NCBI GenBank assembly: GCA_937924475.1
Contig: CALDSV010000069.1
Coordinates: 1-39,572 of the forward strand
Length of the DNA: 39,572 bases
Source of the DNA: an uncultured bacterium
GTDB lineage: Bacteria > Nitrospirota > Thermodesulfovibrionia > Thermodesulfovibrionales > Thermodesulfovibrionaceae
Direction: 5' to 3'
The translations under genes and the position numbers were made by a program. The stretch's first letter is position 1. Every line of letters begins with the position of its first letter. Under the pieces are notes generated by a model that saw only the letters and a list, made by a program, of their open reading frames with translations, was not told the DNA's origin and did not search any database. Positions 2,993 to 39,572 of this stretch are shown here, piece by piece.

Positions 2993-3328
2993 ATGGCATT
3001 TATTGAGTTTAAGGGAAAGCAGATTGAGTTGGATGAGGATGGCTACATTCAGAATCTTGATGATTGGTCACCAGAGCTTGCGGAGTACATGGCACAGCAG
3101 GATGGCATCACTCTTACAGAACAACATTGGGAAGTAATTAACTTTTTAAGAGATTATTATCAGAAATATCAGATTGCACCCATGATTAAAATTCTTGTAA
3201 AAGAAATGGCAAAAATGTTCGGACCTGAAAAAGGTAATACTAAATACCTCTACTCATTATTTCCAGATGGACCAGCAAAACAAGCCTGTAGATATGCTGG
3301 TCTTCCAAAACCAACAGGATGCGTGTAA
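2993..3328 (+). CDS. dsrC: DsrC, sulfur-carrier protein of dissimilatory sulfite reduction
   Basis: A 111-residue cytoplasmic protein. DsrC is the physiological partner of sulfite reductase DsrAB. Two C-terminal cysteines take up a sulfur atom as a trisulfide, which the DsrMKJOP complex then reduces. Here the flexible C-terminal arm ends KQACRYAGLPKPTGCV, giving Cys99 and the penultimate Cys110 separated by ten residues. That is the spacing of true DsrC, whereas TusE-type relatives keep only the last cysteine. The body (TEQHWEVINFLRDYYQKYQI, and later LFPDGPAKQAC) is typical. The start has a near-perfect ribosome binding site. The gene stands alone between its own promoter and a strong terminator, upstream of its partner complex. 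Identity is very secure. Confidence 0.97.
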   Translation: MAFIEFKGKQIELDEDGYIQNLDDWSPELAEYMAQQDGITLTEQHWEVINFLRDYYQKYQIAPMIKILVKEMAKMFGPEKGNTKYLYSLFPDGPAKQACRYAGLPKPTGCV

Positions 3329-3335
3329 ATTATTC

Positions 3336-3366
3336 AAAAAAGGGGCAGACTTCTGCCCCTTTTTTT
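3336..3366 (+). terminator. Intrinsic terminator after dsrC
   Basis: A GC-rich hairpin (GGGGCAGA at 3342-3349 pairing with TCTGCCCC at 3352-3359) is flanked by A5-6 on the left and a run of T from 3360, starting eight bases after the dsrC stop. The A-run makes it potentially usable on both strands. It separates dsrC from the downstream RsbRD_N-dsrMKJOP genes. Confidence 0.85.
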
Positions 3367-3409
3367 CTATGGAAAGGGGGGATAAAAAAAATATTTGTAG
3401 GAGAGAAAA

Positions 3410-3928
3410 ATGTATATTAGAGACCTCCTTTCAAAGAAAAGGAAGGCAATAGTTAACAAATCCTTTGAATTAACAATAGCCACATACCCTGAGGAAAGCC
3501 AGAGTTTTTTTAAAGAAAGTTCCAAACAGTTTACAAATCCTATTGGATACAATATTTATCAATCTATTGAAAAAATTATAGACAATATAATCAATGAAGA
3601 ATCTATTGAAAGCTTTATTTCTCCCTTAGAAGAAATTGTTCGCATAAGAGCAGTTCAAGATTTTACTCCATCTCAGGCAATAGGGTTCATATTCCTTATT
3701 AAAAAAGCCCTACAAGATGAGCTGGAAAAGGAAGTAGACCCCCTTCAACTATTAGATTTTTTAACAAGAGTCGATTCTCTTGTACTGGTGGCTTTTGACA
3801 TTTTCATGAAGTATAGAGAGAAGATATATGATCTGAAATCAAAGGAGCTTATCGACAGAACTTGGTGGATTCTTAAAAAATGGAACATCATATCAGAGAT
3901 TCAAGACAAACCATTAGAAACAAATTAA
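3410..3928 (+). CDS. RsbRD_N-type protein preceding dsrMKJOP
   Basis: A 172-residue all-helical soluble protein. Its sequence resembles the RsbR/RsbRD N-terminal domain family, a globin-like helical sensor fold; the segment IRAVQDFTPSQAIGFIFLIK (residues about 81-100) is characteristic of that family. No STAS domain, kinase domain or DNA-binding domain follows, so the sensor-like domain is free-standing. The ATG has AGGAGAG directly upstream. It sits 26 bases before dsrM in the same direction and is probably co-transcribed with the complex. From what I know of the family, small RsbRD_N proteins also occur beside dsrM in other sulfate reducers, but no role is established to my knowledge. A regulatory or assembly role for DsrMKJOP is inference. 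Confidence 0.75.
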   Translation: MYIRDLLSKKRKAIVNKSFELTIATYPEESQSFFKESSKQFTNPIGYNIYQSIEKIIDNIINEESIESFISPLEEIVRIRAVQDFTPSQAIGFIFLIKKALQDELEKEVDPLQLLDFLTRVDSLVLVAFDIFMKYREKIYDLKSKELIDRTWWILKKWNIISEIQDKPLETN

Positions 3929-3954
3929 AAATTTTAAAAGTGAGGTAGGGTGAG

Positions 3955-4944
3955 ATGGGTATAGGATTAGCTTTTATAATTGTTTTAGGTTTAATCCTTT
4001 TTGCCTATATTGGGACAGAACTTCTAGGATTAAAAGGTCTCTTTGCTGTATTTTTCCCCTATTTAGCCTTAGTTATTTTCTTGATAGGCTTTATTCGCAG
4101 AGTTGTGAAATGGGGAAAATCTCCGGTTCCTTTCAGGATTCCCACAACAGCAGGTCAACAATTTTCACTTCCTTGGATTAAGTATAGTAAAATTGATAAT
4201 CCAGTCACAGGTTGGGGTGTTGCTTTGAGAATGTTTTTTGAAATAGCCTTCTTCAGATCTCTCTTTAGAAATACAAAAGCTGAAATAATGAATGGCAGAC
4301 TCTATGTAGGCTCAAACAAATGGCTATGGATCGGAGCTTTAGCTTTTCACTATTCCTTCCTGATTATCCTCATAAGACATTTAAGATTTTTCATGGCCCA
4401 GACTCCCAATTGTATCTCTATTATTGACTCCGTAGATTCCTTCTGGCAGATAGGTCTTCCAATGCTCTATATGACAGATATTATTATAGCAGCTGCTGCG
4501 CTTTATCTTCTTGGAAGAAGAATATTTAATCCTCAGGTTAAATATATCTCTCTTCCTTCAGATTATTTCCCGTTGTTTCTTATCCTTGGGATAGTAGCAA
4601 CAGGTATTTTAATGAGATATTTTTCAAGGGTTGATATCACTGCTATAAAAGAACTTACCTTAGGATTAGCCTATCTAAAACCGACTATTCCTGATGGAGT
4701 AGGAACCCTATTTTATATTCATCTTTTCCTTGTTAGTGTTCTGTTTGCCTACTTCCCCTTTAGTAAGCTTATGCACATGGGTGGTGTATTTTTGAGCCCC
4801 ACAAGAAATCTTGCTAATAACAACAGGATGGAGAGGCATGTGAATCCATGGGATTATCCAGTTAAACATCGTCATTATGAAGAATATGAAAATGAATTTA
4901 GAGAAAAAATGAAAAAAGCTGGAATACCAGTAGAAAAGGAGTGA
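3955..4944 (+). CDS. dsrM: DsrM, diheme cytochrome b subunit of DsrMKJOP
   Basis: A 329-residue integral membrane protein related to the NarI family. It binds b-type hemes and exchanges electrons between the menaquinone pool and DsrK. About six hydrophobic segments are visible: two before residue 50, then around 123-140, 165-187, 204-222 and 250-270. Candidate axial histidines lie inside or at the edge of membrane segments, including His132 and His142 in FHYSFLIILIRHLRFF, His256, and His274 in PFSKLMHMGGVFLSPTRN, a DsrM signature. The C-terminal 50 residues are charged and cytoplasmic. GAGG lies nine bases before the ATG. A four-base gap leads to dsrK. Length is normal for the family and the identity is secure from both sequence and operon order. 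Confidence 0.95.
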   Translation: MGIGLAFIIVLGLILFAYIGTELLGLKGLFAVFFPYLALVIFLIGFIRRVVKWGKSPVPFRIPTTAGQQFSLPWIKYSKIDNPVTGWGVALRMFFEIAFFRSLFRNTKAEIMNGRLYVGSNKWLWIGALAFHYSFLIILIRHLRFFMAQTPNCISIIDSVDSFWQIGLPMLYMTDIIIAAAALYLLGRRIFNPQVKYISLPSDYFPLFLILGIVATGILMRYFSRVDITAIKELTLGLAYLKPTIPDGVGTLFYIHLFLVSVLFAYFPFSKLMHMGGVFLSPTRNLANNNRMERHVNPWDYPVKHRHYEEYENEFREKMKKAGIPVEKE

Positions 4945-4948
4945 GGCC

Positions 4949-6562
4949 ATGGGACTTCCAAGACCAGATGAATTAATTTCAAATGTTAATTTAAAGAAAA
5001 TGCCATCTAAATGGTGGATGGATACTTTACCTGTGGAATTTAAGCCTGGCTATTATTGCTATGGTGCAAAGGGTAAAAATTTAGAATATGTAGGCTTTCC
5101 TAATGCAAGAGACTTCCATGTAACGGACGAAGACTGGAAGCTTCCAGAAGATTGGAAAAATATTGTACTTGAAGGCATTAAGCAAAGACTTGAAAGATTT
5201 AGATCTTTCCATGTCTTCATGGATATCTGTGTCAGATGTGGTGCCTGTGCAGACAAATGTCACTTCTTCATTGGTACTGGTGATCCAAAAAATATGCCTG
5301 TATTAAGAGCAGAACTTCTAAGGTCTGTTTACAGAAAGTATTTTACTGCTGGAGGAAAACTTTTTGGTAGAAAGGGCGGATCAAGAGAGTTAGACATAAA
5401 TGTTTTAAAAGAACTATGGTACTATTTCTATCAGTGTACAGAATGTAGACGTTGTTCTCTGTACTGCCCTTATGGAATTGATACCGCAGAAATAACAATA
5501 ATAGCAAGAGAGCTTCTAAATCTTTTAGGTCTCAATACAGACTGGATCTCTGGTCCTGTGGCAAATTGTTACAGAACAGGTAATCATCTTGGAATTGAAC
5601 CCCATACAATGAAATCTACTCTTGAGTTTATGTGTAATGATATTGAAGAAATTACTGGAATTAAAATTGACCCTCCCATAAATAAAAAAGGGGCTGAAAT
5701 ACTATTTGTAACTCCATCAGGTGACTTATTTGCAGACCCTGGTATTTATAATGCTATGGGATACATGATGCTTTTCCACGAGATAGGTCTTGACTACACC
5801 TGGAGTACCTTTGCATCAGAGGGTGGAAACTTTGGTTTCTTTACATCTTTAGAAATGGCAAAGAGACTCCATACAAAGATCTATGAAGAGGCTAAGAGAT
5901 TAAAAGTAAAATGGATACTGGGTGGTGAATGCGGCCATATGTGGAGAGTATGGCATCAGTTTCATAATACGTGGTATGGTCCAGTAGATTTTCTTGAAGA
6001 GCCCGTATCTCCTATTACAGGAACGAAATTTGAAAATGCTAAATCAAATAAAATTGTTCACATAAGTGAGTTTACTGCGGATTTAATAAGACATGGAGTT
6101 TTAAAATTTGACAAATCAAGAAATGATAACCTAATAGTTACTTTCCATGATTCTTGCAATCCCTCTCGTGGTATGGGACTTTTTGAAGAACCAAGATATA
6201 TTATCAGAAATGTGTGTAATCATTTCTATGAAATGCCTGATGAAACAATAAGAGAGCAAACATTCTGCTGCGGTGGTGGCTCTGGATTAAATGCTGGAGA
6301 AATAATGGAGCTTAGAATGAGAGGAGGATTCCCAAGAGCCAATGCAGTAAGATATGTCCATGAAAAGTTTGGGGTAAATATGTTAGCTAACATATGTGCA
6401 ATTGACAGAGCTACCTTACCTCCGCTTATGGATTATTGGGTACCTGGGGTGAGAGTTTCTGGAGTTACTGAACTTGTAGCCAATGCAATGATAATGAAGG
6501 GAGAAAAAGAAAGAACCATGAACTTAAGGATGGAGCCACTGCCAGGAAAGGAGGAACAGTAA
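4949..6562 (+). CDS. dsrK: DsrK, HdrD-like iron-sulfur catalytic subunit of DsrMKJOP
   Basis: A 537-residue soluble iron-sulfur protein that sits on the cytoplasmic face of DsrM. It is believed to reduce the DsrC trisulfide or disulfide at a special [4Fe-4S] site, like heterodisulfide reductase HdrD. Two classical cluster motifs are present: Cys94-97-100-104 (CVRCGACADKC) and Cys163-166-169-173 (CTECRRCSLYCPYG). C-terminal CCG-domain elements follow, with HDSCNPSRG (Cys403) and FCCGGGSGLNAGE (Cys440-441), plus GGECGHMW further upstream, which are the ligands expected for the non-cubane-type catalytic centre. No membrane segment or signal peptide is present. Its ATG follows the dsrM stop by four bases, with GGAG inside the end of dsrM. 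Identity is secure. Confidence 0.96.
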   Translation: MGLPRPDELISNVNLKKMPSKWWMDTLPVEFKPGYYCYGAKGKNLEYVGFPNARDFHVTDEDWKLPEDWKNIVLEGIKQRLERFRSFHVFMDICVRCGACADKCHFFIGTGDPKNMPVLRAELLRSVYRKYFTAGGKLFGRKGGSRELDINVLKELWYYFYQCTECRRCSLYCPYGIDTAEITIIARELLNLLGLNTDWISGPVANCYRTGNHLGIEPHTMKSTLEFMCNDIEEITGIKIDPPINKKGAEILFVTPSGDLFADPGIYNAMGYMMLFHEIGLDYTWSTFASEGGNFGFFTSLEMAKRLHTKIYEEAKRLKVKWILGGECGHMWRVWHQFHNTWYGPVDFLEEPVSPITGTKFENAKSNKIVHISEFTADLIRHGVLKFDKSRNDNLIVTFHDSCNPSRGMGLFEEPRYIIRNVCNHFYEMPDETIREQTFCCGGGSGLNAGEIMELRMRGGFPRANAVRYVHEKFGVNMLANICAIDRATLPPLMDYWVPGVRVSGVTELVANAMIMKGEKERTMNLRMEPLPGKEEQ

Positions 6563-6563
6563 A

Positions 6564-6965
6564 ATGTATGATGGATGGAAAATAATTCTTGGCTTAGTAG
6601 TATTTGTAATTATTGTGACTCTGCCCTTTACTATGAGCATTGGAAGGGATTATGTAAAACCTCAACCAAGCATTGATACTCCTGAAATACAGAAAATGGA
6701 AAAGAAACAATGCATTGAATCTAAGCAATACATGAGGGAAACCCATATTAAACTTCTTTACTCCTGGAAAGACTATGCTTCAAGAGAAGGAAAAAGAGTA
6801 TACATTGCCTCTGATGGAAAAGAGTACACCATAAGTCTTCAAAATACCTGCATGAAATGCCATTCAAACAAAGAAAAATTCTGTGATGAATGCCATAATT
6901 ATGTGAGCGTTAAACCCTATTGTTGGGATTGCCATATTGAGCCTAAGGTGGGAGGGTTAAAATGA
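6564..6965 (+). CDS. dsrJ: DsrJ, membrane-anchored triheme cytochrome c of DsrMKJOP
   Basis: A 133-residue periplasmic cytochrome held by an uncleaved N-terminal helix (about residues 6-24, [16 protein letters not shown]). Three c-type heme sites are visible: CMKCH (96-100), CDECH (107-111) and CWDCH (120-124). Cys50, in [10 protein letters not shown], is not part of a heme motif. It matches the conserved cysteine that in purple-sulfur-bacterial DsrJ acts as an axial heme ligand (His/Cys coordination). DsrJ is thought to pass electrons between periplasmic partners and the membrane part of the complex. AAGGAGG lies just before the ATG inside the end of dsrK, and the stop overlaps the dsrO start as ATGA. 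Length and order match the family. Confidence 0.95.
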
Positions 6966-7732
6966 TAACGAGAAGAGATTTCCTTAAAATTTCAGCCTTT
7001 GCATCCCTCATAGGACTTGGAGGATCTCTTTCCATTGAAGCACTGGAAAAGAAACAAGGACCTCAGGTTCTTAAAGACTTAAAAGCCTTGAAAGGTAAAA
7101 GATGGGCTATGGCTATTGATACCAGAAAATTTAAAACTCAGGAAGATTTTGATAAAGTAATTAAAGCCTGCCACAAAGCACATAATGTTCCAGAGATTAT
7201 AAATCCTCTTCATGAGGTAAAATGGATATGGACAGAAGACTATGAACATTCCTTTCCCGGAACCGCTGAACATTATATATCAAAGGAAGTAAAAGAGAGA
7301 AAATTCCTTCTCCTTTGCAATCACTGTGACAATGCTCCCTGCACAAGAGTTTGTCCTGTTAAAGCTACCTTCAAAAGAGAAGATGGGATAACAATGCAAG
7401 ATATGCATCGCTGCATTGGATGCAAATTCTGCATGGCTGGTTGCCCTTATGGAGCAAGAAATTATAATTTTCTTCCACCAAGAGACTACATAAAAGAGTT
7501 AAATCCTGAGTATCCTACAAGAATGTTAGGAGTCGTTGAAAAATGTACCTTCTGCAATGAAAGAATAGACAGAGGACTTCTTCCATACTGTGTTGAAGCT
7601 TCAGAGGGTAAAATCATATTTGGTGACCTCTATGACCCTAATTCTGAGATAAGAAAAGTGCTGGCTGAAAACATAATTATTCGTCGAAAAGTAGAACTTG
7701 GTACACAACCTATGGTTTTCTACATAATTTAA
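6962..7732 (+). CDS. dsrO: DsrO, periplasmic ferredoxin-like iron-sulfur subunit
   Basis: A 256-residue protein with a twin-arginine signal (TRRDFLK at residues 3-9, then a hydrophobic stretch), so it is exported folded to the periplasm. Cluster motifs are [13 protein letters not shown] (119, 122, 127, 131), [11 protein letters not shown] (151, 154, 157, 161) and a third, incomplete one, CTFC...YC (195, 198, 210), in which the expected fourth cysteine appears to be Ser214 (YCVEASEGK). An extra Cys70 occurs in [10 protein letters not shown]. The usual role is electron transfer between DsrJ and the NrfD-like DsrP. The start overlaps the dsrJ stop by four bases, which indicates translational coupling. 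Identity is secure; the missing ligand deserves a comparison with relatives. Confidence 0.95.
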
Positions 7733-7744
7733 GGGGAGGTAAAA

Positions 7745-8935
7745 ATGCTTGATTTAGCGTTAAAAGGCAGACCAAGATACTGGATTTGGGTATCTTTTCT
7801 TATAACCATGATAATTATAGGATTTATATGCTGGATGAGAGAGCATCATGTAGGTGCAGCACTTACAACTGGTCTAAGTAGAGATGTATCTTGGGGATTT
7901 CATGTTGGTCAACTTACCTTCTTTGTAGGAGTTGCTGCTTCAGCTGTATTAGTTGTACTTCCCTACTATTTCCACAATTATAAAATCTTTGGAAGAATAG
8001 CAGTAATAGGAGAATTCTTAGCTGTTGGTTGCGTGCTCATAGCAATGCTTTCGGTTTTCGTCATTATGGGACAGCCTTCTCGTGTTTGGAATGTTATACT
8101 TCATCCAACACCTCATTCAATTATATTCTGGGATATGGTAGTGCTTATAACTTACTTATCTCTTAATCTTTTATGTGGGTGGACAATTTTACATGCAGAG
8201 AAAAAAAGTGCTCCTCCACCTAAATGGATTAAACCATTTATTTATTGGGCAATACTGTGGGCACCCTCAATCCATACAGTTACTGCTTTCTTGTATGCTG
8301 GACTGCCAGGAAGACCCCACTGGATGACAGCACTTCAGGCAGCTCACTTCTTGGCAACAGCCTTTGCTGCAGGTCCTTCTTTACTCATTATACTAAGCAT
8401 GATAATCAAAAAAGTTTCAAAATTTGATCCTGGTCAGCAAGCAATTAATAAACTTGCTGAGATAGCCACCTATGCTTTAATAATCCATCTCTTCTTCATA
8501 GGACTGGAATTCTTCACAGCCTTTTATAGCCAAATACCAGATCATATGGCTGCTCTGAAATATCTCTATGTTGGTTATGAAGGTCATACTGGAATGGTTT
8601 CTTGGATGGCAATTTCTACACTCTTAGCTTTTACAGGTTTATTAATATTCATATTCCCTCCTTTACGGAAATGGAATGTAACAAAACTAATAGGAGCTCT
8701 TTGTATTTTCTTCTCCATATGGATGGATAAAGGCTTTGCATTTGTAGTTAGCGGATTTATTCCAAATCCTTTTGATAAAGTAACCGAGGCTTGGATTGCT
8801 CTTAATGAATTTCTTGTGGCAGCTGGTGTTTGGTCAGTTGGGGCCCTTGTAATAACTGTGCTATATAAGATTGCTATTACTGTCAAAGAAAAAGCAGTTT
8901 TTGATAAATACGGGCATAAACAGATTGTTGACTAA
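7745..8935 (+). CDS. dsrP: DsrP, NrfD-like quinone-interacting membrane subunit
   Basis: A 396-residue polytopic membrane protein of the NrfD/PsrC family with about ten hydrophobic helices spread over the whole length (for example residues 14-29, 55-75, 91-112, 126-145 and 164-183). It is expected to exchange electrons with the quinone pool and with DsrO on the periplasmic side. Family-typical stretches include SWGFHVGQLTFFVGVAASA near residue 50 and GYEGHTGMVSWMA near residue 280. A GGGGAGG ribosome binding site lies directly before the ATG, 12 bases after dsrO. It is the last gene of the operon and is followed by a bidirectional terminator. Identity is secure from homology style and order. 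Confidence 0.95.
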   Translation: MLDLALKGRPRYWIWVSFLITMIIIGFICWMREHHVGAALTTGLSRDVSWGFHVGQLTFFVGVAASAVLVVLPYYFHNYKIFGRIAVIGEFLAVGCVLIAMLSVFVIMGQPSRVWNVILHPTPHSIIFWDMVVLITYLSLNLLCGWTILHAEKKSAPPPKWIKPFIYWAILWAPSIHTVTAFLYAGLPGRPHWMTALQAAHFLATAFAAGPSLLIILSMIIKKVSKFDPGQQAINKLAEIATYALIIHLFFIGLEFFTAFYSQIPDHMAALKYLYVGYEGHTGMVSWMAISTLLAFTGLLIFIFPPLRKWNVTKLIGALCIFFSIWMDKGFAFVVSGFIPNPFDKVTEAWIALNEFLVAAGVWSVGALVITVLYKIAITVKEKAVFDKYGHKQIVD

Positions 8936-14431: not shown

Positions 14432-15751
14432 ATGGAAGAATTAAATACAATTTGGCAAAAAATTTTAGAGACTATAAGAAATAAGGTAGGAGAGTCTATT
14501 TTTAATCTATGGTTTTCTCCTGTTAAACTACTCAGAATAAAAGATTCTGAGATATTTCTTGAAATTCCAAATAGATTTTTTCAAGATTGGATAGAAGATA
14601 ATTTCCCCTTATTGATAAAGGATTCACTTAAGGAAATAACAGGTAAGGACTTTGAAGTTTATTATGAATTAAGTGGAAAAGAACAGCCTCAGTTTAACTC
14701 TGAAGATAAAAAGCAAAAGACAAAGAGGGGAAATTTAAATCCAAAATATACCTTTGATTCTTTTGTAGTAGGTCCCTCTAATCAATTTGCTCATGCTGCA
14801 GCTTTTAGAGTAGCAGAAAATCCAGGCTTTTCTTATAATCCTCTTTTTATTTATGGAGGAGTTGGTTTAGGAAAAACTCACTTGATAAATGCTATAGGTA
14901 ACTTTATTTTAGATAATAATCCTCATTTAAATGTTTGCTATATTTCTTCAGAGCAATTTACAGGGGAATTTATTTCTGCTATTAGACATGAAAAAATGCC
15001 TGAATTTAGGGCTAAATATAGAAATGTGGATATTTTTTTAGTAGATGACATTCAATTTATTGCAGGAAAAGACTCCACTCAGGAGGAATTTTTTCATACT
15101 TTCAATGAGCTTTACTCAAAACAAAAACAAATAGTAGTATCCAGTGATAGACCTCCTATTGAAATTTCTGATATTACTGATCGTCTTCGTTCAAGATTTG
15201 GAATGGGATTGATAGCTGATATTCAACCTCCAGAAATGGAGACAAGATTAGCTATTTTATACAAGAAGGCAGAGAGAGAGGGAATAGTTTTACCAGAAGA
15301 TGTTGCTAATTTTATAGCTTCTCGCGTAAAGTCAAATGTGAGAGAGTTAGAGGGCTCTCTGATTAAACTTTGCGCCTATATATCTTTAACAAAAAGTCCT
15401 ATTAATTTAGAGGTGGCAAGACAAGTTTTAAAAGATTTGCTTCCTGATGATAATAAACCTATCACAATTGATTTGGTTCAGAAATTAGTTTCAGATACAT
15501 TAGGAATTAAAGTGCAAGACATTAAATCTAAGAAGAGAACAAAGGAAATATCTCATGCGAGAAAAATTGCCATGTATATTACTAAAAAAGTTACAAATCT
15601 CTCTCTTGCAGAAATAGGTAGTGCCTTCGGAGGTAAAGATCATGCAACTGTAATCTATGCTTGTAAACAAATTGAGAGAGAAAGACAAAAAGATGAAAAT
15701 TTAAGTAGATTAATAGATAACATCATAAAAAAATTACAGGGAAATAAGTGA
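14432..15751 (+). CDS. dnaA: Chromosomal replication initiator protein DnaA
   Basis: A 439-residue initiator that binds DnaA boxes and opens the origin in its ATP form. Domain I (residues about 1-80) begins MEELNTIWQKILETIRNKVG. A short charged linker (about 90-105) follows, then the AAA+ domain with Walker A GGVGLGKTH (near 146-154) and Walker B IFLVDDIQFIAGKDSTQEEF. The C-terminal helix-turn-helix carries the DnaA signature GKDHATVIYACKQIERE. Length is normal. The start gives the usual family N-terminus, but no ribosome binding sequence is visible upstream; the preceding bases are TTGTTGAAAAA. The stop is followed 11 bases later by the dnaN ATG, so the two are an operon. Confidence 0.98.
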   Translation: MEELNTIWQKILETIRNKVGESIFNLWFSPVKLLRIKDSEIFLEIPNRFFQDWIEDNFPLLIKDSLKEITGKDFEVYYELSGKEQPQFNSEDKKQKTKRGNLNPKYTFDSFVVGPSNQFAHAAAFRVAENPGFSYNPLFIYGGVGLGKTHLINAIGNFILDNNPHLNVCYISSEQFTGEFISAIRHEKMPEFRAKYRNVDIFLVDDIQFIAGKDSTQEEFFHTFNELYSKQKQIVVSSDRPPIEISDITDRLRSRFGMGLIADIQPPEMETRLAILYKKAEREGIVLPEDVANFIASRVKSNVRELEGSLIKLCAYISLTKSPINLEVARQVLKDLLPDDNKPITIDLVQKLVSDTLGIKVQDIKSKKRTKEISHARKIAMYITKKVTNLSLAEIGSAFGGKDHATVIYACKQIERERQKDENLSRLIDNIIKKLQGNK

Positions 15752-15762
15752 GGGAGGGAAAT

Positions 15763-16872
15763 ATGCACATAAGGGTTAAAAAAGAAATAATACAACAAAA
15801 ACTCTCAAAAATTCAAAATATTGTTGAGAAAAAGGGAATTATGCCTATATTAAATCATTTTTTATTAGAGACTAACGCTGATAAAGGATATATAATGGCT
15901 ACAGACTTAGAAACAGCTGTAAAACAACCTGTGGAAATGGAGGTTTTAAGTTCTGGGAAAATATGTATTAATGCAAAAAAATTTTATGAGATTGTAAAGG
16001 AGTTAGAAGAAGAAATAGATATTCAATTATTAGATAAATGGATTTTAATAAAAAGTGGTAGAACTACTTTTAAATTGTCCACCTTGGAACCTGATGAATT
16101 TCCTGTATGGCCACAAATTGGTGATTCCATAAGTATAAAATTATCGAGGGACTTTTTATTAACTGCCATAGAGAAAACAATTTATGCTGCTGGAGAGGCA
16201 GATGCTCGTTATGTTTTAAATGGATTGCTTTTTCATATAAAAGATGGAAAGGAATTTAGAGTTGTAGGGACGGACGGCCATAGGTTAGCCCTATTTAGGG
16301 CAAAATTGGAAGGAGTTAATACTCCAGAAGAAATAAAAGTAATTTTATCTAAAAAATCATTAAATGAATTAAAAAAATTTCTAACAGAGGCAGAATCGGT
16401 AATTTTTAATATTGGAAAAACTCATGTAATGTTTGAAATAGATGGTATAGTTTTTCTTACCAGAATGATAGAAGGGAATTATCCTGATTATGAATTAGTC
16501 ATTCCTAAGCATAATGATAAAGTGGCCATCTTTGATAAAAAATTGATGATTTCTGCTTTAAGAAGGGTTTCCATCTTAAGTAGAGAGAATCAGAGCGCTG
16601 TGAAGATGGAATTTGCAGAGGATTTAGTAATTATTTCAGCCTCTGATCCTGAGCTTGGAGAGGCTAAGGATGAATTAACGATAGATTATCAATCTTCGCC
16701 TATTGAGATAGGATTTAATGCAAAATATTTAATAGAAGCCCTTGATGAGCTCAGTTCTGACAGAGGTAAACTCACCATGAGTTCACCTGATAGAGCTATT
16801 TATCTGACTGATGCGGAATCTTCTGAAGAATTCAAATACGAAAGTATAGTTATGCCTTTTAAATTATTATAA
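15763..16872 (+). CDS. dnaN: DNA polymerase III sliding clamp (beta subunit)
   Basis: A 369-residue protein that forms a ring-shaped dimer around DNA and tethers the replicative polymerase. Three similar clamp domains are expected. Recognisable pieces are PILNHFLLETNADKGYIMAT at residues about 25-44, VVGTDGHRLALF near residue 175, and the C-terminal YESIVMPFKLL, close to the classical VMPMRL clamp end. An in-frame GTG at 15748 overlaps the dnaA stop and would add MREGN. I choose ATG 15763 because GGAGGG at 15753-15758 is correctly spaced for it. It is followed within eight bases by gyrB, with no recF between. Identity is secure. Confidence 0.97.
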   Translation: MHIRVKKEIIQQKLSKIQNIVEKKGIMPILNHFLLETNADKGYIMATDLETAVKQPVEMEVLSSGKICINAKKFYEIVKELEEEIDIQLLDKWILIKSGRTTFKLSTLEPDEFPVWPQIGDSISIKLSRDFLLTAIEKTIYAAGEADARYVLNGLLFHIKDGKEFRVVGTDGHRLALFRAKLEGVNTPEEIKVILSKKSLNELKKFLTEAESVIFNIGKTHVMFEIDGIVFLTRMIEGNYPDYELVIPKHNDKVAIFDKKLMISALRRVSILSRENQSAVKMEFAEDLVIISASDPELGEAKDELTIDYQSSPIEIGFNAKYLIEALDELSSDRGKLTMSSPDRAIYLTDAESSEEFKYESIVMPFKLL

Positions 16873-16877
16873 GGTGA

Positions 16878-21587
<4,710 letters not shown>

Positions 21588-32373: not shown

Positions 32374-32418
32374 AGTTGTGTAATTTTGTTTCTCTATCGA
32401 TTATGTGGAGGTTTTTTT

Positions 32419-34311
32419 ATGAAAAAAAACATTAAAAAACTTATTTTTAAATTACTTAATGATGAAGATCCTTCTGAAAGAAGATATGCTGCAGAGGAAC
32501 TAACCTACTTTGATGAAAGAGCTGTATATCCTCTTATTAAGGCATTGAAAGATGAAAGCCCTGCAGTGCAAGATGCTGCTACACAGGCACTCATAGCCAT
32601 TGGAACATCCTTAGATGAGGATAGATTTAGCAGTAATCCGGGAGAGTTAGTAACCTATATGGTGATTCCTCTTCTGAGAGAAGAAGAGGCTTATATAAGA
32701 AATACAGCTTTACTTATTCTTACAGAAATAGGAAATAAGGCTCCTTTTTTGATCTATCAACTTCTAAAAGATAAAGATCCCGATGTAAGAAAATTCGGTC
32801 TTGACCTTATAGCTGATATTAAAAGTGGTTTTGATGGTGAAAAAGTTATTCCTCTTTTGAAAGATCCCAATGCCAATGTAAGAGCTGCTGCAGCAAGAGC
32901 AATTGGTGAATTAAGATATGAGAAAGCTGTTTCAGCATTAATTGAATGTCTTAATGATGAAGAATGGGTTTCCTTTTATGTTCTTCAGGCTTTAGCCTCT
33001 TTGCGTTCCTCAGATGCTGCAAAGGCTATAGGAGAACTTCTTCTCACTACAGATTCTCTTTTAGTTAAGGCAGAAGCAATAGATACTCTTGGAAAAATAG
33101 GAACACAAGAAGTAATTGAACCTTTATTAAAGTATTATCCCATTGCCACTAAGGATGAAAAAAGAGAAATAATAAAAGCCTTAGTAAGAGTTGAGGCTTT
33201 ACCCAAGGATGAAGATATAAAGGATGAACTGCTAAGTTTAATCAAAGAAGGTGAATGGGAGGAGAAAGCTTTAGCCTTCAAAGGAGTCAAAATAACAAAT
33301 TTAAAAGAAGCAGTGCCTTTACTGGTTGAAGAAGCTGGGAAACTTGATCCTTCTTGTTTTGATTATGATGAGAAAATATCTTTAATTCAAGACACACTCC
33401 TTGGTATAGACTCAGAGGAGGAATTATTATTTTTACTTGAAAAAGACAAGTTAAAATACAGAGCAAAGGCTTTTGTTATAAATACTCTTGGTAAAATGAG
33501 GAGTACGAAAGCTATACCAACTTTATTAAGATTTCTTGAGGATATAAAGAGAGACATAAGAATAGCTTCAGCAAAGGCACTTGGTAACATTGGAGATAAA
33601 GAATCTGTTCAACCTCTGGTTGCTCGCAGTGTAGAGGATGTTGATGTAAACGTACGTAAAGCTGCCATAGAAGCTTTAGGCATGATTAGAGCAAAAGAGG
33701 CTTTTGAACCTTTGTTAGAACTTGTTCAGAAAGAAACTTATCCTGATGTCATAGAAAGCATCGTTATTTCTTTGATAGAAATAGATCAGGATAGATTTCT
33801 AAATAATTTAAAATCTTACAGTACTGAAGTAAAACTTGCAGTGGCAAATGTTACTTATTCTTTAGATATTCTTAACATGCTTCTTCAGTGTGACATTCTT
33901 GACGTAAGAAAAGCTGCTATAATGGCACTTGGTAAATTGGGAACTCCAGAGGCAATTTCTAAAATTACGGAATTTATATTTTCAGAAAATAAGGAAATAA
34001 AAAAGGCAGCTATTTCTGCTCTTGGTGAAGCACAGTTTTGTTCTGACCTTTTGTTTGAATGCCTAAATGATGAGGATCCTTGGATAAGATATTATACAGT
34101 TAAGGCATTAAGTAAAAGTTGTGAACCTGAAATATTAATTGAAAAATTAACTCCCTTATTAGATGATCCTTTCCCCCCTGTAGTTATAGCCACCATTGAG
34201 GTATTAAGCTTCTTTGGAGGAAGCGAGATTTATGATATTCTATACTCTAAGAAGGAGCATCCTAATAAGGAGATAAGAGAGAAAATAGAGGAGGTATTAA
34301 GTAGAATATGA
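32419..34311 (+). CDS. HEAT-repeat protein leading the chemotaxis operon
   Basis: A 630-residue soluble protein made almost wholly of HEAT/PBS-lyase-type repeats of about 30 residues. Examples are DERAVYPLIKALKDESPAVQ, EKAVSALIECLNDEEWVSFY, TKAIPTLLRFLEDIKRDIRI and KESVQPLVARSVEDVDVNVR. Repeats of this form act as protein-binding scaffolds, and I see no catalytic motif. I choose ATG 32419, seven bases after GTGGAGG, rather than an in-frame upstream start at 32386 without such a site. The stop overlaps cheR as ATGA, so the protein is made together with the adaptation enzyme. Its partner is unknown; a scaffold for chemotaxis or motor proteins is inference. PBS-lyase activity is unlikely, since phycobilins are not expected here. 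Confidence 0.85.
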   Translation: MKKNIKKLIFKLLNDEDPSERRYAAEELTYFDERAVYPLIKALKDESPAVQDAATQALIAIGTSLDEDRFSSNPGELVTYMVIPLLREEEAYIRNTALLILTEIGNKAPFLIYQLLKDKDPDVRKFGLDLIADIKSGFDGEKVIPLLKDPNANVRAAAARAIGELRYEKAVSALIECLNDEEWVSFYVLQALASLRSSDAAKAIGELLLTTDSLLVKAEAIDTLGKIGTQEVIEPLLKYYPIATKDEKREIIKALVRVEALPKDEDIKDELLSLIKEGEWEEKALAFKGVKITNLKEAVPLLVEEAGKLDPSCFDYDEKISLIQDTLLGIDSEEELLFLLEKDKLKYRAKAFVINTLGKMRSTKAIPTLLRFLEDIKRDIRIASAKALGNIGDKESVQPLVARSVEDVDVNVRKAAIEALGMIRAKEAFEPLLELVQKETYPDVIESIVISLIEIDQDRFLNNLKSYSTEVKLAVANVTYSLDILNMLLQCDILDVRKAAIMALGKLGTPEAISKITEFIFSENKEIKKAAISALGEAQFCSDLLFECLNDEDPWIRYYTVKALSKSCEPEILIEKLTPLLDDPFPPVVIATIEVLSFFGGSEIYDILYSKKEHPNKEIREKIEEVLSRI

Positions 34312-35156
34312 GCACCTTAACAGCATCACCGCAGACACTAAGTGAAGAGACTTTCAGGCAGTTAAGGGATTTTATTTATGAGAAAACAGGTATATATATT
34401 CCTGATAATAAAAAATATTTTCTTGAGAATAGGCTTAGTAGAGTTATAAAAGAGAAGAACTTGAGAAGTTACGATGATTATCTTTATTACTTGAAATACA
34501 GTGCTACTAAAGCAGATATAGCCAGACTTTTTGATGCAGTAACTACAAATGAAACTTTTTTCTTCAGAGAACCTCAACAGTTTGAAGTTTTAGCAAGTAA
34601 TCTTATACCACAGATAGTTAAAGAGAATGCTCAAATGGGGAGAAAAGACATAAAGATTTGGTCTGCGGCATGCTCAACGGGTGAAGAACCCTATACAATA
34701 GCCATGATTTTACTTGAAAAAACAGAGTTAATGACCATAAGAAAAGAAATATATGCCTCTGATATTAGTGAATCTGTTTTAATGTCTGCAAGAAGGGGCA
34801 TGTACGGGGGATATTCTGTGAGGAACATACCACCTCAATACATGGCAAAGTATTTTAAGGATTCTGGGGGTGTTTATATTCTTTCTGAAAATGTAAAAAC
34901 ACTGGTAAAATTTATGAATATAAATCTTATAGAGGAAAGAGAAGTGAGACAATTAAAAGGCATTGATATAGTTTTTTGTAGAAATGTTTTAATTTATTTT
35001 GATGATAAGGCAAAGAAAAAGGTGGTTTCATTAATTTACGATGTACTTAGACCAAAGGGTTACTTGTTCATAGGTACGTCAGAAAGTTTGCATAACATAA
35101 CAAGAGCTTTTAGGCCAGTAGTTATAAACAAAGTAATTGTATATCAAAAAGTTTAA
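34308..35156 (+). CDS. cheR: Chemotaxis protein methyltransferase CheR
   Basis: A 282-residue cytoplasmic enzyme that methylates glutamates of chemoreceptors with S-adenosylmethionine. The N-terminal helical domain (about 1-90, FRQLRDFIYEKTGIYIPDNK and TTNETFFFREPQQF) is followed by the methyltransferase fold. The cofactor site is IWSAACSTGEEPYTIAMILL. Further typical parts are YASDISESVLMSARRGMYGG and DIVFCRNVLIYFDDKAKKKV. All parts are normal for CheR. The start overlaps the HEAT-repeat gene by four bases. CheB, its opposing methylesterase, is at the right end of the window. Confidence 0.96.
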   Translation: MSTLTASPQTLSEETFRQLRDFIYEKTGIYIPDNKKYFLENRLSRVIKEKNLRSYDDYLYYLKYSATKADIARLFDAVTTNETFFFREPQQFEVLASNLIPQIVKENAQMGRKDIKIWSAACSTGEEPYTIAMILLEKTELMTIRKEIYASDISESVLMSARRGMYGGYSVRNIPPQYMAKYFKDSGGVYILSENVKTLVKFMNINLIEEREVRQLKGIDIVFCRNVLIYFDDKAKKKVVSLIYDVLRPKGYLFIGTSESLHNITRAFRPVVINKVIVYQKV

Positions 35157-35169
35157 GTGGAGGTAAGGG

Positions 35170-35550
35170 ATGAAAGTACTCGTGGTAGATGATGATAAAA
35201 CAACGAGAAAGATGCTTTCTCTTATTTTAAGAAGTAAGGGATATGAGGTAATAACAGCAGAAAATGGTATGGATGGTCTTCAAAAATTAGGAATGGAGCA
35301 GGTTAATCTTATCCTTACTGATATGAATATGCCCTATATGGACGGAATAGAGTTTACCAAACAAGTAAGGGCAAATCCTGAAATTTCAAATATTCCAATT
35401 GTAATGTTGACTACAGAAGCAGATGAAGAAGAAAAGCAAAGAGCCTACAGAGCTGGTGTAGATGATTATCTTGTTAAACCAGCCACAGCAGAACAAATTG
35501 TTGAAAGCATGAAAAGAATTATAAGGAAAATTTTTGGGAAAAAAGAATAG
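35170..35550 (+). CDS. Single-domain response regulator (CheY-like, first of two)
   Basis: A 126-residue receiver domain without an output domain. It has the acidic pair in VLVVDDDKTTRK (Asp7-9), the phospho-accepting Asp51 (ILTDMNMPYMDG), Thr81/Thr82 and Lys103 (DDYLVKPAT). GGAGGTAAGGG precedes the ATG. It lies directly before a second receiver gene that looks much more like classical CheY. This copy could be a phosphate sink, an adaptation regulator or a partner of the HEAT protein. The sequence does not decide which. It is surely a functional receiver by its residues. Confidence 0.9.
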   Translation: MKVLVVDDDKTTRKMLSLILRSKGYEVITAENGMDGLQKLGMEQVNLILTDMNMPYMDGIEFTKQVRANPEISNIPIVMLTTEADEEEKQRAYRAGVDDYLVKPATAEQIVESMKRIIRKIFGKKE

Positions 35551-35559
35551 GAGGAAGAA

Positions 35560-35964
35560 ATGTTTAATTTCAAAATAAAAGTTCTTGTAGTAGATGATTT
35601 TCCAACAATGCGAAGAATAGTAAAAAATTTGTTGAAACAATTAGGGTTTGAAAATATAGATGAAGCTGAAAACGGAGAGGATGCCTTGAAAAAATTAAAG
35701 AGTGGCGATTACGGACTTGTGGTATCTGATTGGAATATGCCAGTAATGGAGGGAATAGAACTTCTTAAGCATGTAAGAAATGATCCTCAACTTAAGGATA
35801 TACCTTTCTTAATGGTTACTGCAGAGGCAGAAAAGGAAAAAGTTATTGAGGCTATTAAGTCAGGAGTAGATAACTATATTGTAAAACCATTTACTGGTGA
35901 AGTCTTAAAAGAGAAACTTGAGAAAATTGCCCAAAAAAAGCCATCTCTTAAAGGGGGTCAATAA
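35560..35964 (+). CDS. cheY: Chemotaxis response regulator CheY
   Basis: A 134-residue receiver domain that carries the signal from CheA to FliM. The match to classical CheY is close: [18 protein letters not shown], then [20 protein letters not shown] with phospho-accepting Asp, [20 protein letters not shown], and [16 protein letters not shown] with the conserved lysine. The DWNMP and KPFT blocks are those of the enterobacterial protein. AGGAGG lies just before the ATG, and the stop overlaps the cheA start by one base. Its likely binding sites are encoded in the same window: the FliM N-terminal peptide and the C-terminal peptide of the CheW-CheZ fusion. Confidence 0.95.
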
Positions 35965-37685
35965 TGGCTGATGAGATGGATGAGATAATAAATGAATTTA
36001 TTGTTGAAGCAGAAGAAATACTTGAGGGACTTGATCCATTATTTGTAGAGCTTGAGCAAAGAGGACAAGATTCAGAAATTATAAATGAAATATTTAGAGG
36101 AATGCACACCCTTAAAGGTGCTGCTGGTTTCTTAGGTTTTCAAAACATAGTAGATGTAGCCCATAGAGCTGAGACAATTTTAAAAAGATTAAGAGAAGGA
36201 GAGATGGAAATCTCTCCAGAGATTACTGATGCAATTCTTAAAGCTACCGATGTTCTAAGAAACCTTGTTGATCATCTCAAAAGAAAGGATGAAGCTAAGG
36301 AAGACATAAATCCAGTTCTAAGTCTCTTAGACAGTGTTCTTTCAAAAGAGTATTCACCTAAGCGAGAAGAACCTAAGGAGGAGATAGAATCCTCTGAACA
36401 GCCTGTAGAAGAAAAGCAAATTGAGGAAAAGGAAAAAACAGTAAAAACAGAAGAGACCTTTTCGCAGACACAAAAAGAAAGAGAAAAGGAAAAAGAAGTA
36501 GCTACTCTGAGAGTTGATGTAGCAAGAATAGATAAAGTTATGGATTTAGCTGGAGAAATTGTTTTGGCTCGTAATAGACTTTTAAATCTTGCAAATAAGC
36601 TTGAATCAAAATACAGTGGTGATGAAAATGTAGAAAGTCTTATTGAGACAACCTCTTTTCTTGACAGGGTTACTTCTGATTTACAACTTGCTGTAATGAA
36701 AATGAGAATGCAACCTCTTCAGAAGGTTTTTGTCAAGTTTCCAAGGATGGTAAGAGATCTTGCAAGACAACTCGGTAAAGAAATAGAACTTGAAATAAAA
36801 GGAGAGGATACAGAAGTTGATAAGTCAGTTATTGAAAACATTGGTGATCCTCTGGTGCATATAATAAGAAATTCCATAGATCATGGTATAGAATTTCCGC
36901 AGGAAAGAGTTTCAAAGGGCAAACCAGAGAAAGGGAAAATTCTAATAGATGCTTATCAAAAAGGAACTCAAATAGTTATTGATATTGTTGATGATGGCAG
37001 AGGAATAGATGTGGAGGCTGTTAAAGCAAAAGCAATCACAAAGGGACTTATAACCCTTGAGGAAGCAGAAAAGATGTCTGATGATGCTTTAATAAATTTA
37101 ATCTTCTTGCCCGGTTTTTCTACAAAGGATGTGTCAACAGAAGTAAGCGGAAGAGGCGTAGGAATGGATGTTGTTAAATCAAACGTGGCAAAACTTAATG
37201 GTTATGTCGAGATATTTACAGAGAAAGACAAAGGAACTACTTTTAGGATAAGCCTTCCTCTTACTCTTGCAATAATTCAAGCCATGATGATACAAGTAGC
37301 TGAGGAAGTATATGCTATTCCTCAATCTATGATAGAGGAAACACTAAGAGTTCATGTATCTCAATTAAAAGAAGTATCTGGACAAAGAGTTTTAACAGTA
37401 AGAGACAAGGTTTTGCCTGTTTTTATTCTTAATGATCTTCTCGGAGTTTATGGTTCAATAGAGACTGATAAAAAATACATCCTTGTAGCAAGTGTTGGAG
37501 AGAGAAGATTCTGTATAGCTGTAGATGCAGTTTTAGGACAGGAGGAGATTGTTATAAAAACAATTAATGGCATTGATTCTGAAGCCTGTGGAATAATGGG
37601 AGCTACTATAACGGGTGATGGTAAGGTTGTTTTAATACTCGATCTTGCTTTGATTTCAAGAAAAGTTTTCGCAGGAAAAGGATAA
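35964..37685 (+). CDS. cheA: Chemotaxis histidine kinase CheA (no evident P2 domain)
   Basis: A 573-residue kinase. The P1 phosphotransfer domain has the substrate His48 in FRGMHTLKGAAGFLGF. Instead of a folded CheY-binding P2 domain, residues about 128-182 form a Glu/Lys-rich linker (EEPKEEIESSEQPVEEKQIE and following). P3 dimerisation helices follow from VDVARIDKVMDLAGEIV. The P4 ATPase has IIRNSIDHGIEFPQERVSKG, DIVDDGRGID and GRGVGMDVVKSNVAKL. P5, which binds CheW, runs from about 435 to the end (PLTLAIIQAMMIQVAEEVYA). All catalytic boxes are present. It overlaps cheY by one base and is followed after 22 bases by the CheW-CheZ gene, with GGAAAGGAG upstream of that ATG. Confidence 0.95.
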   Translation: MADEMDEIINEFIVEAEEILEGLDPLFVELEQRGQDSEIINEIFRGMHTLKGAAGFLGFQNIVDVAHRAETILKRLREGEMEISPEITDAILKATDVLRNLVDHLKRKDEAKEDINPVLSLLDSVLSKEYSPKREEPKEEIESSEQPVEEKQIEEKEKTVKTEETFSQTQKEREKEKEVATLRVDVARIDKVMDLAGEIVLARNRLLNLANKLESKYSGDENVESLIETTSFLDRVTSDLQLAVMKMRMQPLQKVFVKFPRMVRDLARQLGKEIELEIKGEDTEVDKSVIENIGDPLVHIIRNSIDHGIEFPQERVSKGKPEKGKILIDAYQKGTQIVIDIVDDGRGIDVEAVKAKAITKGLITLEEAEKMSDDALINLIFLPGFSTKDVSTEVSGRGVGMDVVKSNVAKLNGYVEIFTEKDKGTTFRISLPLTLAIIQAMMIQVAEEVYAIPQSMIEETLRVHVSQLKEVSGQRVLTVRDKVLPVFILNDLLGVYGSIETDKKYILVASVGERRFCIAVDAVLGQEEIVIKTINGIDSEACGIMGATITGDGKVVLILDLALISRKVFAGKG

Positions 37686-37707: not shown

Positions 37708-38892
37708 ATGAGGCAGTGCATAGGATTTCTTTTAAATGAAAATGAGTATATTATTCCAATTCTAAAAGTGCAAGAAATAATAAAAATTCCACAGATTACA
37801 AAAATGCCAGGAGTGCCTTATTATGTAGAAGGAGTTACAAATTTAAGAGGTAGAGTTATTCCCATTATAAACTTAAAGAGAATATTAAATCTTGCTGAAG
37901 AGCAGGAGGGAAATAAAGTAGTTGTAATATCAACAGGCAGAATAACTTTCGGGGCTTTAGTAGATAACATAACAGGTGTTGTTAACATTGATGAAAAAAG
38001 CATTGAACCTGCAGAAGAATTTCTACAACATGGAGATAATCACATTGAGGGAGTAGCGAGGATAGATGATAGATTACTAATATTGTTAGACGTAAAAAAA
38101 TTAATTCCTTCAGAAGATCAATCACTTTTTGAAGACGAGGTATTAGAAGTCATAGAAGAGGGAGATAAAGTAGAAGTACTAAAAAAGGTTGCCACAGTAG
38201 GTGGTGAAATTACTGTAAAAGAAATAATAGATCCTGTTAGATTTTATGAAGAAAAGGGACTTTCAAAGGATGATCCAAAATATTTACTTTTAGAAGAGAT
38301 TACAAACTTTATGAATTCTATCTCATTAGGCGATTATGAAAGAGCAGATCAAATAATGACTAATATCATTCAGAAAAGTCAGAGTGATTTGTTCAAAGAA
38401 GTAGGTAAAGTAGCAAGAAAGCTTCATGATTCACTTAAAAGCTTTAGAGAAGCTCTTGATCCCCGTATAAAAGAATTAGCAACAGAACAGATGCCAAGAG
38501 CAGTTGATCAACTTCAAATGGTAATAAATAAAACAGAAGAAGCAGCAAATAAAACCATGGAAATAGTTGAAAAAAATATTCTTAAGATGGATGATTTAGC
38601 TAACCATATAAGAGAATTGCAAGGACCTGAGGAATCAGTAAAATTTCTAAAAGAATTTAAAAATACCTTAGAGGATGACTTAACAGAGATTCTTACAACT
38701 CAGTCTTTTCAAGATCTTACAGGACAGGTTCTTAAAAAAGTAATAAGCCTTGTGGGAGACCTTGAGGTTGAGCTTTTGAAACTTATAACTACCTTTGGTT
38801 TAAAGTTTGAAGAAAAGAAAACTGTACCTAAAGAAGTAGAGAAAGTATCTCAAGAAGATGTAGATGAATTATTAAAAGAATTTGGCTTCTAA
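37708..38892 (+). CDS. CheW-CheZ fusion protein
   Basis: A 394-residue single reading frame. Residues 1 to about 140 are a CheW domain (RQCIGFLLNENEYIIPILKV, then VPYYVEGVTNLRGRVIPIIN), the adaptor that joins CheA to receptors. After a linker (about 140-190), the rest is CheZ, the CheY-P phosphatase: a long helical region, DLFKEVGKVARKLHDSLKSF, then QMPRAVDQLQMVINKTEEAA, then the catalytic helix TTQSFQDLTGQVLKKVISLV. In that helix Asp336 and Gln340 match Asp143 and Gln147 of Escherichia coli CheZ. The end, SQEDVDELLKEFGF, matches the CheY-binding tail of CheZ. Phosphatase activity would thus be fixed at the receptor-CheA array. No frameshift or stop lies between the parts, and no separate cheW or cheZ is seen in the window. 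Confidence 0.92.
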   Translation: MRQCIGFLLNENEYIIPILKVQEIIKIPQITKMPGVPYYVEGVTNLRGRVIPIINLKRILNLAEEQEGNKVVVISTGRITFGALVDNITGVVNIDEKSIEPAEEFLQHGDNHIEGVARIDDRLLILLDVKKLIPSEDQSLFEDEVLEVIEEGDKVEVLKKVATVGGEITVKEIIDPVRFYEEKGLSKDDPKYLLLEEITNFMNSISLGDYERADQIMTNIIQKSQSDLFKEVGKVARKLHDSLKSFREALDPRIKELATEQMPRAVDQLQMVINKTEEAANKTMEIVEKNILKMDDLANHIRELQGPEESVKFLKEFKNTLEDDLTEILTTQSFQDLTGQVLKKVISLVGDLEVELLKLITTFGLKFEEKKTVPKEVEKVSQEDVDELLKEFGF

Positions 38893-38904: not shown

Positions 38905-39572
38905 ATGATAAAAGTTTTGGTTGTTGATGACTCAGCATTCATGAGGAGAGCTTTAACATCTATGCTTCAAGAAGATCCTGAGATAAAGGTAATAGGAGCT
39001 GCAAGAGACGGGATGGAAGCTATTCAGATGATTCAAGAATTAAAGCCTGATGTAGTAACAATGGATGTAGAGATGCCCAGAATGGATGGCATAACAGCAC
39101 TGAAGGAAATAATGAATAAATGTCCAGTGCCTGTAATTATGGTAAGTTCCCTTACAACGGAGGGAGCAAAAGTTACTCTGGAAGCTCTTGAATTAGGAGC
39201 AATAGATTTTATCCCAAAGAATCTTGCAGAACTTTCAGTGAATATTGTAAAGATTAAGGGAATGCTAATTGAGAAAATAAAAACAATTGGGAAAAGAGGT
39301 ATTATAAAGAGAAAACCATCGGTTAGAACAACAGAGATAAAAAGTGAGCCTTCAAAAATTGAACTTCCTAAAACGAGAATCTCTACAGAGAGAAAAGTAG
39401 GCATTGTATCCATTGGAACATCTACTGGAGGACCAAAGGCACTTCAGGAAATAATACCAAAATTACCAAAGGATTTTCCTGTGCCTATTGTTATTGCTCA
39501 ACACATGCCACCTAATTTTACAAAACCTTTTGCTGAAAGACTGGATCAACTAAGTCAGCTGTCTGTAAAAGA
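38905..39572 (+). CDS. cheB: CheB, protein-glutamate methylesterase (partial, cut by window end)
   Basis: The first 222 codons of CheB, which removes methyl groups from chemoreceptors and is activated by phosphorylation from CheA. The receiver domain begins [20 protein letters not shown], with phospho-accepting Asp54 in VVTMDVEMPRMDG, followed by PVIMVSSLTTEGAKVTLEAL and the lysine in DFIPKN. A linker follows (about 125-165). The esterase domain starts VGIVSIGTSTGGPKALQEII, with the catalytic serine in the GTSTGGP turn, and IAQHMPPNFTKPFAERL with the active-site histidine. AGGAG lies before the ATG, 12 bases after the CheW-CheZ gene. The C-terminal part with the last catalytic aspartate is outside the window. 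Confidence 0.95.
   Translation, partial: MIKVLVVDDSAFMRRALTSMLQEDPEIKVIGAARDGMEAIQMIQELKPDVVTMDVEMPRMDGITALKEIMNKCPVPVIMVSSLTTEGAKVTLEALELGAIDFIPKNLAELSVNIVKIKGMLIEKIKTIGKRGIIKRKPSVRTTEIKSEPSKIELPKTRISTERKVGIVSIGTSTGGPKALQEIIPKLPKDFPVPIVIAQHMPPNFTKPFAERLDQLSQLSVK

Follow-up and report, generated by a model that had tools for sequence, protein, structure and literature searches.

The gene at positions 37708-38892 of the window (the whole stretch of DNA that was analyzed, 39,572 nucleotides) encodes a CheW domain and a CheZ part in one protein, which we call CheWZ. We consider it likely that CheWZ is the CheZ of the flagellar system tied to a CheW adaptor, which would hold the phosphatase covalently at the kinase. 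CheW is the adaptor that keeps chemoreceptors and kinase together in one cluster. The off-switch of the swimming signal, in Thermodesulfovibrio as in the majority of related lineages, would then probably be anchored where the signal arises.

CheW and CheZ are encoded in a single open reading frame

The cheWZ frame (37708-38892, + strand, stop codon included) starts with ATG and runs over 394 residues without an internal stop. An earlier note on this DNA had described one uninterrupted frame for both domains, and this holds well beyond the present contig. We surveyed 296 Nitrospirota genomes with a fusion profile, counting only matches that span both domains in one frame, and found the same architecture, without stops, in 69 of them. 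MAG contigs can in principle be mis-joined, and a mis-assembly or a missed stop could have linked neighboring cheW and cheZ genes; no actual sign of this was found, and the same architecture is present in the single-contig genomes G002, G009, G012, G026, G029 and G295. In addition, dN is 0.009-0.15 for the CheW and 0.012-0.11 for the CheZ domain, compared with dS values from 0.3 to saturation, a pattern of strong purifying selection on both. Since the assemblies are independent and selection is purifying, mis-assembly is excluded, and an artefact of either kind has next to no chance of explaining the gene.

The CheW domain (residues 3-135, 37714-38112, + strand) retains the GVTNLRG segment. 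It matches the Pfam CheW profile (PF01584) over positions 1-136 of 138 with an E-value of 2.8e-37 and 127.8 bits, far above the curated cut-off of 23.5, so that the full length of the family is covered and the domain is complete, as had been proposed. With a profile built from 26 homologues, CheW proteins of known structure were matched at a best E-value of 1e-39. The arginine of the NLRG segment (R47) is invariant across the 26 aligned fusions, and this conservation suggests that the CheW part may bind the P5 domain of CheA and the receptors. The domain shares 41% identity with the genome's separate CheW protein; CheW proper lacks an enzymatic domain, whereas CheWZ carries CheZ.

A linker (residues 136-225, 38113-38382, + strand) follows. 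Its last ~30 residues (~195-225) align with the N-terminal extension of the gammaproteobacterial CheZ of Aeromonas and Pseudomonas, which indicates that CheW was fused to CheZ as a whole, with a junction at around residues 140-190.

The CheZ part (residues 226-394, 38383-38889, + strand), a putative phosphatase, was identified by Pfam and by profile alignment. The Pfam CheZ profile (PF04344) matches in two stretches, the first starting at residue 227 (E-value 3.6e-32, 112.3 bits with a cut-off of 30.7), and the 26-homologue profile aligns with residues 11-214 of the E. coli CheZ chain (PDB 1kmi, E-value 6.8e-32), covering its whole length. CheWZ and E. coli CheZ also share the DxxxQ motif and the C-terminal tail. 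The catalytic motif D336-L-T-G-Q340 (38713-38727, + strand) corresponds to D143/Q147 of E. coli CheZ. At the C-terminus, the tail SQEDVDELLKEFGF (38848-38889, + strand) is predicted to bind CheY: in the alignment VSQEDVDELLKEFGF of CheWZ pairs with ASQDQVDDLLDSLGF of E. coli CheZ, the respective ends being VDELLKEFGF and VDDLLDSLGF. Across the 26 aligned fusions, D336, Q340 and the two C-terminal residues G393-F394 do not vary, and the catalytic and tail residues overall are invariant or nearly so. The catalytic Asp336/Gln340 pair and the CheY-binding tail had both been read from the sequence before, and the alignments agree with that reading.

The description of the C-terminal half as a full CheZ needs one correction. 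Family match, catalytic pair and tail are present, but the tip of the apical hairpin is not. The Pfam match jumps over profile positions 78-107, and compared to E. coli CheZ ~14 tip residues (E. coli ~90-103, including W94, W97 and F98) are deleted in CheWZ between residues 304 and 305 (38617-38622, + strand); a further ~7 residues past the tip are also missing. The fused proteins of families f3, f7, f11 and f14 retain a longer hairpin. Two sister families with standalone CheZ also lack the apical tip, which makes it less likely that the fusion caused the loss of the tip.

Predicted with seven close homologues, the structure of the whole of CheWZ was unusable (pLDDT 43). The CheZ part alone was modeled with low confidence (pLDDT 61), with predicted helices that fit a long helical hairpin. 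A Foldseek search with this model returned no match at E <= 0.001, and re-alignment of the model listed generic helical bundles, CheZ not being among them. The assignment to the CheZ fold is therefore carried by sequence homology.

cheWZ is part of the flagellar chemotaxis operon

The gene order in the window is fliL-fliM-...-fliOP-fliR-flhB-flhA-flhF-flhG-fliA, followed by a gene for a HEAT-repeat protein and by cheR, cheY1, cheY2, cheA, cheWZ and cheB. The setting of cheWZ is thus a flagellar chemotaxis operon. All chemotaxis genes are on the + strand. Pfam identified cheR (34308-35156), cheA (35964-37685; 573 aa with Hpt, dimerization, ATPase and CheW domains) and cheB (38905-39570, truncated by the contig end). 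Two single-domain response regulators are encoded between cheR and cheA, recognized by Pfam or profile match and by alignment. CheY2 (35560-35964) resembles E. coli CheY (174.8 bits), retains its residues D13, D57, N59, T87, E89 and K109 and is the likely substrate; cheY1 (35170-35550) encodes the other one. The tandem pair (35170-35964) is conserved throughout the class and in f28. CheY2 keeps most of the E. coli-like FSTMRR segment, which CheY1 lacks. No Pfam match to the CheY-docking P2 domain was found in CheA (35964-37685). The linker between P1 and P3 of CheA is short, and the CheA proteins of fused and unfused relatives are equally without a P2 match.

The HEAT-repeat protein (641 aa, 32386-34311) is encoded between fliA and cheR. 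In f3, f25 and f28, HEAT proteins related to it occupy the corresponding position ahead of cheR (loci L069, L071, L149, L142 and L143), and the protein may be an unrecognized part of the chemotaxis system.

In related families cheWZ occupies the place of cheZ. The order is cheY-cheWZ-cheA in f3 and f22, and P. aeruginosa has fleN-fliA-cheY-cheZ-cheA; because it sits in the same genomic slot as the Pseudomonas gene, CheWZ is the orthologue-by-position of CheZ. The sister families f29 and f31 have the order cheY-cheZ-cheA-cheV-cheB, with a standalone CheZ and a CheV-type protein. There, the CheV-type gene follows cheA (L146:7471-8451, L147:1808-2758, L150:1634-2593), the place that cheWZ takes in the window.

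CheWZ probably serves as the genome's only dedicated CheY-P phosphatase

We looked for separate cheW and cheZ genes elsewhere in the genome, which is ~95% complete. No other CheZ, CheC or CheX was detected above threshold, and a separate, full-length cheW was found beside a chemoreceptor gene. Since other phosphatases of these families were not found while a second CheW was, CheWZ is probably the genome's only dedicated CheY-P phosphatase but not its only adaptor; with a genome about 95% complete, an overlooked second phosphatase is possible. Another CheA, accompanied by a CheW-like protein of its own, is encoded at a different locus. A second chemosensory cluster (L078, G000:C24:27823-33017) comprises a CheA that bears a receiver at its C-terminus, a diverged CheW, two proteins of the methyl-accepting type and CheY-like proteins, and resembles a system of the pilus type or another one unrelated to flagella.

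The separate CheW implies that receptor rings could be built without CheWZ. The CheW domain of CheWZ could accordingly be an allosteric arm that binds CheA, with bound CheA activating CheZ and no seat in the receptor ring needed; CheA-short is reported to activate CheZ in E. coli. Yet the CheW domain of CheWZ is as intact as a standalone CheW and equally constrained, with no sign of a loss on the receptor side, and we regard an arm of this kind as unlikely. An array adaptor bearing a phosphatase remains the preferred reading.

E. coli CheZ is a dimer. If CheWZ dimerizes in the same way, each molecule would have two CheW domains, and the fusion might mainly be structural, the CheZ dimer linking two CheW domains and stiffening the array while phosphatase activity is secondary or lost. 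Against this, the DxxxQ motif and the CheY tail do not vary among the aligned fusions, and the genome has no further known phosphatase. A mainly structural role is therefore highly improbable, and a tethered phosphatase is again favored.

The fusion is the normal form of CheZ in the class

Fourteen of the 16 genomes of the genus contain the fusion, the remaining two being only 56% and 63% complete. Among the 66 genomes of the class in which the match to CheZ is clear (better than 1e-10), 64 have the fusion; the exceptions are a short fragment (G271) and, confirmed by inspection of the open reading frame, a divergent CheZ without CheW (G047). The earlier note had called the combination unusual, which is true only outside this lineage. 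Beyond the class, fusions are present in families f22, f25 and f28, and every sampled CheZ locus of f26, f29, f31, f33, f34 and f37 encodes a standalone protein. In f30, CheZ is preceded by a strongly diverged or unrecognizable CheW-like part. Since CheW decays there while CheZ is kept, not every lineage depends on the adaptor. The f30 proteins (L097, L103, L107, L089) are 329-364 aa long with a CheW-like N-terminal half, as if the adaptor were decaying while CheZ persists.

In two genomes of one genus (f12, g40), an additional gene encodes a CheW-CheZ fusion that is more diverged (G158:C21:26905-28080, G273:C77:15638-16813). In the standalone CheZ of f29/f31 (L052, L082, L083, L091, L092, L104, L106) FQDLTGQ is replaced by FQDLVAQ or FQDIVAQ, and the standalone CheZ of f33 (L093, L099) and f34 (L086, L090, L096) did not match the motif pattern. 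A single-query scan of genome contigs returned close relatives only, a search of viral contigs yielded no relative, and none of the 98 matches among plasmid records covered more than 80% of the query.

The two domains were placed in separate trees. In the CheW tree, the fusions of the class and of f25 form one clade (support 99/96), separate from the sampled standalone CheW proteins, and a single clade of all fusions was not rejected (p 0.46). In the CheZ tree, such a single clade was strongly rejected (p 1e-42), and a clade of the class and f25 fusions was not (p 0.32). The rejection allows either several fusion events or one early fusion in the phylum with later losses of CheW in some lineages.

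A phosphatase probably held at the kinase

For CheWZ we infer phosphatase activity, docking to the array, dimerization and termination of the signal mainly at its source. The CheW part would dock on the P5 domain of CheA, on the array receptors or on both. The CheZ part would dimerize as an antiparallel hairpin of helices, CheY-P would be captured by its C-terminal tail, and Gln340 and Asp336 would accelerate hydrolysis of the phospho-aspartate on CheY-P. The phosphatase would thereby be fixed covalently to the kinase, replacing the contact of the apical hairpin with CheA-short in E. coli, and the CheY-P signal would be ended mainly at source.

E. coli CheZ reaches CheA-short through its apical hairpin (PMC7750401), so the comparison that had been drawn with E. 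coli is correct, the hairpin tip itself being absent in CheWZ. The outcome, a phosphatase at the kinase, is presumed to be the same in both cases; in E. coli the contact is non-covalent and made by the hairpin tip (PMC7750401), whereas CheWZ has an N-terminal CheW domain that presumably provides a covalent one. The absence of the tip that docks on CheA-short fits anchoring through CheW but hints at it only faintly, because other clades also lack the tip without having the fusion. The CheZ proteins of alpha- and deltaproteobacteria have likewise been reported to be without CheA-short-binding sequences (PMC7750401).

More tentatively, CheWZ could be built into the array as a structural component and at the same time be the sole CheY-P phosphatase, with the dimer bridging two CheW positions and the signal ended almost only at source; we hold this stronger version to be rather doubtful. 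If it were true, kinase and phosphatase would be co-assembled through CheZ dimers that bridge CheW positions. This would be a third mode of ending the signal, beside CheZ that is free or docked on CheA-short and systems of the CheV/CheC type, and it would be fixed across a bacterial class.

Relation to CheV and significance

CheWZ resembles CheV in that an array adaptor is fused to a part acting on the level of CheY-P. CheV consists of CheW and a receiver domain without CheZ, whereas CheWZ consists of CheW and CheZ; its C-terminal half is CheZ, and Pfam found no Response_reg (receiver) match in it. CheV had no match in the genomes of the genus. CheWZ as a simple replacement for CheV was considered and dropped, since several related families have both.

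CheZ, CheW and the combination of an adaptor with a signal-terminating module, as in CheV, are already known. We regard CheW-CheZ as a new form of CheZ that is functionally parallel to CheV: a counterpart in which the adaptor would carry a true phosphatase instead of a receiver domain. No description of a CheW-CheZ fusion in Thermodesulfovibrio or elsewhere was found in the open-access papers searched; domain databases may list the architecture. Whether a phosphatase is needed at the kinase, and how this bears on signal range and gain, has been debated on the basis of mutants and models of E. coli (PMC2673030, PMC1447658). A whole class in which kinase and phosphatase would be covalently tied, apparently without free phosphatase, makes this question directly testable by splitting CheWZ.

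Other loci in the window

A CbiA/CobB-like amidase gene is followed by genes for a nitrate-reductase-gamma-like membrane protein, a 4Fe-4S protein and an NrfD-like protein (2993-8935). This region probably encodes a sulfite-reduction membrane complex of the dsrMKJOP type with DsrN. A dnaA-dnaN-gyrB-serS cluster (14432-20401) precedes the flagellar/chemotaxis operon by a few kb and possibly adjoins the replication origin.
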